Made by a program: the position numbers and the translations under genes. Positions 18,467 through 18,563 of a stretch of DNA of 64,000 nucleotides are shown piece by piece. Source of the stretch: Microbacterium sp. Marseille-Q6965 (GTDB lineage: Bacteria > Actinomycetota > Actinomycetes > Actinomycetales > Microbacteriaceae); the NCBI RefSeq assembly GCF_946151065.1, contig NZ_CAMGZA010000001.1, forward strand, positions 186,001-250,000. The letters are read 5' to 3'. Position 1 is the stretch's first letter. Each line of letters opens with the position of its first letter. The notes under the pieces were generated by a model. It was not told the DNA's origin, made no database searches, and saw nothing but the letters and a program-made list of their open reading frames with translations.

Positions 18467-18563
18467 CCCGCATGATGCGGGCTCCGCCCGGCCGGAGTCG
18501 ACTCGGGTCATGGTGCGAGGGCTCTCGGGCGGACACGACGGCGGCCCTCGCCTGGGTCCGCCC
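18467..18563 (-). promoter_or_regulatory. Structured mRNA leader with potential pseudoknot
   Basis: Reading the minus strand, four 8-nt blocks occur in the order A (GGGCGGAC, 18563-18556), B (GCGAGGGC, 18551-18544), A' (GTCCGCCC, 18534-18527), B' (GCCCTCGC, 18522-18515). A pairs with A' and B with B' perfectly, so the RNA can form an H-type pseudoknot or switch between two exclusive hairpins. Two more hairpins follow: CTCCG/CGGAG (18497-18482) and CCCGCA/TGCGGG (18481-18467), then the ribosome binding site. The transcript is expected to start near 18557-18560. Function unknown. Confidence 0.5.

Follow-up and report, generated by a model that had tools for sequence, protein, structure and literature searches.

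The rpf Gene and Its Leader

The window, by which we mean the whole 64,000-nt stretch of Microbacterium sp. Marseille-Q6965 DNA that was analyzed, carries an rpf gene whose product combines an Rpf-type transglycosylase domain with a LysM domain, and the elements considered here lie in the leader and promoter region of this gene (table 1). Its start is probably the GTG at 18443, as judged from the GGAGG at 18453–18449 that precedes it. The first-pass annotation had described four perfect 8-nt blocks in this region (A, B, A', and B'), and all four are exact on the minus strand. We found a third perfect 8-nt pair that was absent from that annotation, TCCGCCCG at 18533–18526 with CGGGCGGA at 18490–18483, also on the minus strand. 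When the 97 nt are shuffled with dinucleotides preserved, 7 of 2000 shuffles contain an interleaved perfect 8-mer pair; cutting the window into 4916 overlapping segments of 97 nt gives 20 with such a pair, five of them at this locus. The block pattern is therefore unusual but by itself not decisive, and we regard it as a fair lead and not as proof.

Table 1. Features of the rpf locus, listed in the direction of transcription (R3, model of relatives described in the text).
Feature	Sequence	Position	Strand	Evidence
Conserved motif upstream of promoter	CTGGCAAG-N3-CTG	18601..18614	minus	24/36 leaders
MtrA-like direct repeat, expected to lie over the -35 region	GTTACC-N5-GTGACC	18575..18591	minus	GTNAYN-N5-GTNAYN in 36/36 leaders
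-10-like box	TATCGT	18564..18569	minus	TANNNT 5–7 nt after MtrA-like box in 34/36 leaders
Block A	GGGCGGAC	18556..18563	minus	
Block B and helix strand B (partner B')	GCGAGGGC	18544..18551	minus	alignment pairing, own-partner test, tree events
Helix strand C (partner C')		18537..18541	minus	alignment pairing, own-partner test, tree events
Block A'	GTCCGCCC	18527..18534	minus	
Helix strand A' (partner A'', crosses B:B')		18527..18533	minus	alignments, tree events, complement scan
Block B' and helix strand B'	GCCCTCGC	18515..18522	minus	alignment pairing, own-partner test, tree events
Loop, aligned with the UGACCUCUAUU loop of lysM-Actino relatives	CATGACC..GAGTCG	18499..18512	minus	R3 alignments
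Helix strand A'' (partner A')	GGGCGGA	18483..18489	minus	alignments, tree events, complement scan
Hairpin D	CCCGCATCATGCGGG	18467..18481	minus	excised-segment folding, arm-swap test
Helix strand C', 6 nt before ribosome binding site	GACGG	18460..18464	minus	alignments, tree events, spacing
Shine-Dalgarno	GGAGG	18449..18453	minus	GGAG after C' in 34/34 distinct close-type leaders
rpf gene, Rpf-type transglycosylase (PF06737) and LysM (PF01476)		17787..18443	minus	domain matches

A Conserved Pseudoknot in the rpf Leader

Computational comparison with related loci indicates that the leader folds as a pseudoknot in the order B-C-A'-B'-A''-D-C'-SD, in which helix A':A'' crosses helix B:B', and helix C:C' encloses A':A'' together with hairpin D. 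The leaders most similar to that of the window form a close-type set of 36, which includes two identical pairs, so that 34 distinct leaders were counted. A first alignment of 15 close-type leaders including that of the window was made without any structure; 94.9% of its 312 cells are paired, changes on both sides occur in 10 of 21 pairs, and none of 500 shuffles matched the paired-cell, double-change, or covariation values, while control alignments in which the partners were slid by 1–3 columns have 41–53% of cells paired. All 34 distinct leaders were also placed in an alignment that was fitted to helices C and A'. Here 96.0% of 405 cells are paired, and double changes occur in 5 of 12 pairs, a number that 6 of 500 shuffles reach. 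Parsimony on the tree counted pairing-preserving double events in B (7), C (7), and A' (4) versus 0–1 for slid partners, and one-sided events that break a pair number 7, 3, and 4, respectively.

Stems formed from own partners were also compared with stems formed from swapped partners, and in the close group none of 2000 permutations was as good for B, C, or D. Helix A':A'' is mostly invariant in this group, and 63 of 2000 permutations were as good; its covariation rests mainly on the more distant relatives described below, where all seven pairs are changed on both sides. Hairpin D folds with at least 5 pairs when its segment is excised from each of the 34 distinct leaders. Further pair types in the close group were not above the shuffles (145 of 500 with 15 leaders, 356 of 500 with 34), and an unguided scan of all pairs against a tree-based null found 0 of 6,555 pairs at E < 0.05 (best 0.98), with 7 of the 21 proposed pairs ranking within the top 21 scores. 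The helix-only tests have more power, but the structure under test was derived from the same alignments. Shuffles have folding energies as good as that of the leader (z-scores 0.03, 0.13, and 0.02), so minimum free energy is uninformative as evidence here.

The B:B' pairing proposed by the first-pass annotation thus holds, as it covaries among related leaders, and a pseudoknot, which that annotation had allowed for, is supported as well. The partner of A' is A'' (18489–18483) and not block A as had been proposed; of the two pairings in which covariation was to be sought, A:A' and B:B', the latter shows it and the former does not. A 7/7 complement of A' stands upstream of B in 1 of the 36 leaders, namely that of the window, and there it sits in the promoter; downstream of B such a complement is found in 23 of 36 leaders, and the misses include at least two leaders in which A' had been wrongly chosen by the automatic procedure. 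Block A has no conservation in the 15-leader alignment.

C' and GGAG are separated by 6 nt in 31 of the 34 distinct leaders and by 5–7 nt in all 34, and the Shine-Dalgarno stands outside every helix of the conserved fold. By eye, a conserved CGGYC that precedes A'' could form a helix with the GGCCG that follows C'; this helix is mixed, being compensated in some leaders and mismatched in others, and we do not claim it.

Gene Association and Distribution

A protein search with the rpf product found matches at E ≤ 0.001 in 27 of 149 genomes of the genus, eight of them (own genome included) at E < 1e-60, and at E ≤ 1e-15 in 34 of 299 genomes of the family. From the search of named genomes we used the best 80 of 537 confirmed matches, and among these 80 are loci of Microbacterium, Agrococcus, Mycetocola, Curtobacterium, Arthrobacter, and Lentzea; leaders of Curtobacterium and Lentzea were left out of the alignments.

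We then used a covariance model of close-type leaders, termed R1, whose training set includes the window, which makes its 71.6-bit match there circular. R1 finds a single copy in the own genome and one copy each in 22 of 366 genomes of the genus, 14 of these 22 being outside its training set. All 22 copies in the genus precede an Rpf protein, with a same-strand CESGG[ND]W motif no more than 1.2 kb downstream. The nine of 299 family genomes with an R1 match are all members of the training set, and 20 of the best 80 of 537 named Rpf loci match with E below 1e-8. In a motif scan, some Rpf loci were without such a leader. The conserved helices and the association with the gene agree with the earlier suggestion that a structured, probably cis-regulatory RNA lies before this Rpf-LysM gene.

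Relationship to lysM-Actino RNA

lysM-Actino RNA (RF03090) is reportedly a candidate cis-regulatory RNA that stems from a 2017 survey of 224 candidate RNAs. We found no mention of lysM-Actino, RF03090, or related names in the literature searched, a result that applies to that search and not to print as a whole. In the window, RF03090 does not reach its gathering cut-off of 153.8 bits and has no match at E up to 5 between 18200 and 18700. None of 10 loci of close relatives reaches the gathering cut-off, nor do nine of those loci have a match at E up to 10. Matches above the cut-off occur in 0 of 299 genomes of the family and 1 of 278 of the order, and matches below it fall in leaders of homologous genes from elsewhere in the order (2 of 19 loci, 7 of 299 genomes, 7 of 20 loci, and 13 of 278 genomes). 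In one genome, a full RF03090 match of 249.7 bits lies ahead of an Rpf-LysM gene, and by eye its helix order is the same. This single above-cut-off match, in locus L192, has about 70 nt extra between C and A' (1529–1598), an insertion that may explain the narrowness of the curated model.

More distant relatives were chosen as 32 loci, largely by their D motif, and two without a D motif near enough were dropped; leaving out two others as too divergent (L035 and L160) gave an alignment, A4, of 28 leaders. The constancy of hairpin D in A4 is thus a product of selection. These 28 leaders stand before Rpf genes, and their helices follow one another as in the close group (B-C-A'-B'-A''-D-C'-SD). Pairing holds in 91.4% of 696 cells (80% for the cells of B), and double changes are seen in 14 of 25 pairs, among them all 7 of A':A'' and 5 of the 10 of B:B'. 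Slid controls have 26–48% of cells paired and up to 8 double-changed pairs, and for stems of own partners 0 of 2000 permutations were as good for B, C, or A'. Within the aligned piece, 26 of 28 relatives have GGAG after C', with a spacer of 6–8 nt.

A covariance model of the 28 relatives, R2, matches in 16 of 297 genomes of the order, in all 16 before Rpf proteins, and its best match in the window is out of register. We rebuilt this model as R3 with 41 members including the above-cut-off member; in its alignment, which is fitted to the structure, 14 of 15 pairs are double-changed. Against the 36 close-type loci (114,723 bases) R3 yields 24 matches at E ≤ 10, and the copy in the window is not among them. 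In 10 of the 36 loci the match is on the element and on the right strand, and the six best matches (E 0.002 to 0.094) are all there; another three overlap the element but lie on the wrong strand, and inverted repeats may therefore contribute to the R3 score. When R3 is targeted at the window, the best match is in register at 4.8 bits (E 0.13), and a search of 281 nt from the nearest relative of the window gives 28.1 bits (E 4.9e-6), although the D and C' part of that alignment is shifted past the Shine-Dalgarno. A bridge between the two groups is L035, which R2 matches with 62.9 bits and R1 with 14.7 bits (E 0.0017, targeted) at the same place; its leader sequence is that of L107 from Mycetocola reblochoni.

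The nested core of RF03090 (an A':A'' hairpin, a D hairpin, and an enclosing helix before the Shine-Dalgarno) is also found in the window if the outer pairs of RF03090, which Rfam draws differently, are equated with helix C as we read them. The B:B' pseudoknot across A' is present in both the close group and the relatives, and the window gene carries the LysM domain that belongs to the location of RF03090. The window shares with lysM-Actino RNA the helix order and the Rpf-LysM gene downstream, and a weak profile match through intermediates may connect the two; its copy is without the CCGGGGACGG hairpin sequence, most of the loop sequence, and the insertion between C and A'. By architecture and position the element looks like a strongly diverged branch of the lysM-Actino lineage, for which the formal score test fails. 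The word "novel" in the first-pass annotation is too strong in that architecture and, weakly, sequence profile tie the element to lysM-Actino through intermediates.

Two observations concern individual loci. In two Lentzea loci (L153 and L156), which are outside the order, complementary blocks in the same order can be seen by eye between 160 and 60 nt ahead of the Rpf-LysM match, with CCGGAGGACC/GGTTCTCCGG crossed by CCCAGTCCG/CGGACTGGG; R3 reported neither of these loci, and it matched some Curtobacterium loci weakly. Locus L052 has two lysM-Actino-like leader copies on the minus strand, at 1243–1374 and 2111–2241; directly downstream of the lower one is another Rpf match from that genome.

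Promoter Region and an MtrA-Like Box

A -10-like box lies just upstream of the leader, as the first-pass annotation had proposed; its further suggestion that the RNA begins with block A misjudged the spacing. The RNA would be expected to start near 18557–18556, and block A would be the discriminator, as the -10-like box ends at 18564. Since block A abuts this box and a start 6–8 nt past the box is expected, A would be almost wholly untranscribed. A strict sigma-70 consensus scan of 18380–18640 found no promoter, and the promoter call therefore rests on conservation in relatives; a terminator scan of the same interval found none.

The direct repeat GTTACC-AAACC-GTGACC agrees with the form of an MtrA operator (GTnAC half-sites with a 5–6 nt spacer), for which the consensus GtnAcC-n5-GTnAcn is given in PMC13189361. 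The pattern GTTAYC-N5-GTKAY occurs once in the 64-kb window versus 0.01 expected, a count that refers to the window. The genome encodes an MtrA-like regulator, whose best solved relative is MtrA 2gwr (E 2.1e-93), with an LpqB-like gene nearby and, on reading the sequence, an apparent histidine kinase between them. The window resembles MtrA-regulated cell-wall promoters in its direct repeat and in having an MtrA-like gene near an LpqB-like gene in the genome, and PMC6265350 lists M. tuberculosis rpf genes as MtrA targets. MtrA may be a regulator that acts at the box at 18575–18591. The motif CTGGCAAG-N3-CTG stands 8–9 nt ahead of the GTTAC box in the 24 leaders that have it and is missing in 12 Agrococcus-type leaders, seven from named Agrococcus and five from genus group g50; it may be the site of a second regulator.

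c-di-AMP and the rpf Leader

The c-di-AMP riboswitch is reported before rpfA in S. coelicolor and predicted before rpf1 in C. glutamicum (PMC9960051). The element resembles it in being a leader of an rpf gene, one of the cell-wall genes with such leaders in Actinobacteria. The first-pass annotation, which proposed an Rfam check, had suggested that its element may differ from this riboswitch, and this holds. The Rfam scan near the element found nothing above any cut-off and, when relaxed, a chance-level psbNH match (E 1.2) on the plus strand at 18574–18601. The conserved aptamer RF00379 (ydaO-yuaA) has 0 matches in the whole genome, and 2 of 14 control genomes were positive. A diadenylate cyclase domain (PF02457) was not found in the own genome, and 11 of 14 control genomes were positive; the domain was also not found in any of seven other family genomes tested, five with the close-type leader (G089, G142, G038, G320, and G162) and two with the relative type (G417 and G245). 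The result for these eight genomes suggests that c-di-AMP signaling is missing there. The domain is present in both of two genomes of another family of the order, f6 (probably Micrococcaceae), with a relative-type leader. We conclude that c-di-AMP is very unlikely to be the ligand in the branch of the window, and that it may still be one in the other branch. A degenerate ydaO riboswitch, for which the position of the c-di-AMP riboswitch before rpfA and rpf1 would speak (PMC9960051), was rejected as having next to no chance of being correct, given that the own genome has no RF00379 match and that the cyclase domain was not found in 8 of 8 family genomes.

Proposed Function of the Leader

How dormant actinobacteria wake has been asked for a long time. 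Since Rpf enzymes can damage their own producer, the control of these enzymes is informative. We think it likely that the element is a pseudoknotted mRNA leader of the lysM-Actino lineage, most probably one that controls initiation of rpf-lysM translation. Its structure, conservation, gene association, and lysM-Actino-type architecture come from the computational comparisons above; a translational mode and switching are what we infer beyond them. The leader would be a cis-acting RNA of about 110 nt on the minus strand, running from about 18557 to the Shine-Dalgarno, and its folded and unfolded states would differ in how accessible the Shine-Dalgarno beside helix C is to the 30S subunit. C' ends 6 nt before the Shine-Dalgarno, and no terminator-like site lies nearby; the simplest reading is that pseudoknot formation would control ribosome access. 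The trigger in this organism would be some metabolite, protein, or physical signal other than c-di-AMP, and transcription would be set separately by the MtrA-type box. A narrower form of this proposal, which we offer tentatively and consider somewhat improbable, is that the lysM-Actino lineage, this branch included, forms a non-c-di-AMP riboswitch class that directly gates Rpf translation. It would stand before rpf in Microbacteriaceae apparently without c-di-AMP, at a place taken by the c-di-AMP riboswitch in other actinobacteria; natural candidates for the ligand would then be a product of cell-wall turnover or a different nucleotide signal.

Rpf-LysM genes of two families within a single order are preceded by one knotted RNA architecture. 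In the family of the window it occurs where no diadenylate cyclase domain was found (8 of 8 genomes), and the own genome has it in the absence of a c-di-AMP riboswitch match. An Rfam entry named after LysM thereby turns into a candidate rpf switch whose helices are defined and which can be tested, and the divergent branch separates what varies (the sequence of hairpin D) from what is kept (helix order and spacing to the ribosome binding site). The RNA switch of M. tuberculosis rpfB is likewise an RNA element in an rpf 5' UTR; unlike the leader described here it is described as being under transcriptional regulation and as apparently confined to pathogenic mycobacteria (PMC6009663).

A leader that does not switch at all could serve as a constitutive mRNA stabilizer or ribosome standby site, keeping the Shine-Dalgarno open or protecting the 5' end. 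The position of the Shine-Dalgarno outside all conserved helices would suit such a role, as would the lack of a nearby terminator-like site and of a demonstrated conserved anti-Shine-Dalgarno. We nevertheless consider it unlikely, since a crossed multihelix architecture kept in two families before one gene class exceeds the needs of a stabilizer and since rpf genes elsewhere are switch targets, as reported for S. coelicolor rpfA (PMC9960051) and for rpfB (PMC6009663). A role as operator of an RNA-binding protein (autogenous or ribosome-related, for instance) in place of a metabolite aptamer is also doubtful: the helix sequences of the leader vary and their order is constant, as expected if the partner reads shape, yet what is known here is the position before rpf.

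Very improbable, in our judgment, is that the conservation is that of a promoter or operator in DNA only, with the RNA helices as by-products of G+C-rich, protein-bound inverted repeats. This would account for an MtrA-like box in 36 of 36 leaders and a strikingly conserved upstream region, for folding z-scores of about 0, and for the wrong-strand model matches at the element in three loci. It would not account for interleaved helices of which B, C, and A' carry compensatory, pairing-preserving changes or for the preference of D for its own arm, and the helices all lie downstream of the -10-like box at a near-constant distance to the Shine-Dalgarno.
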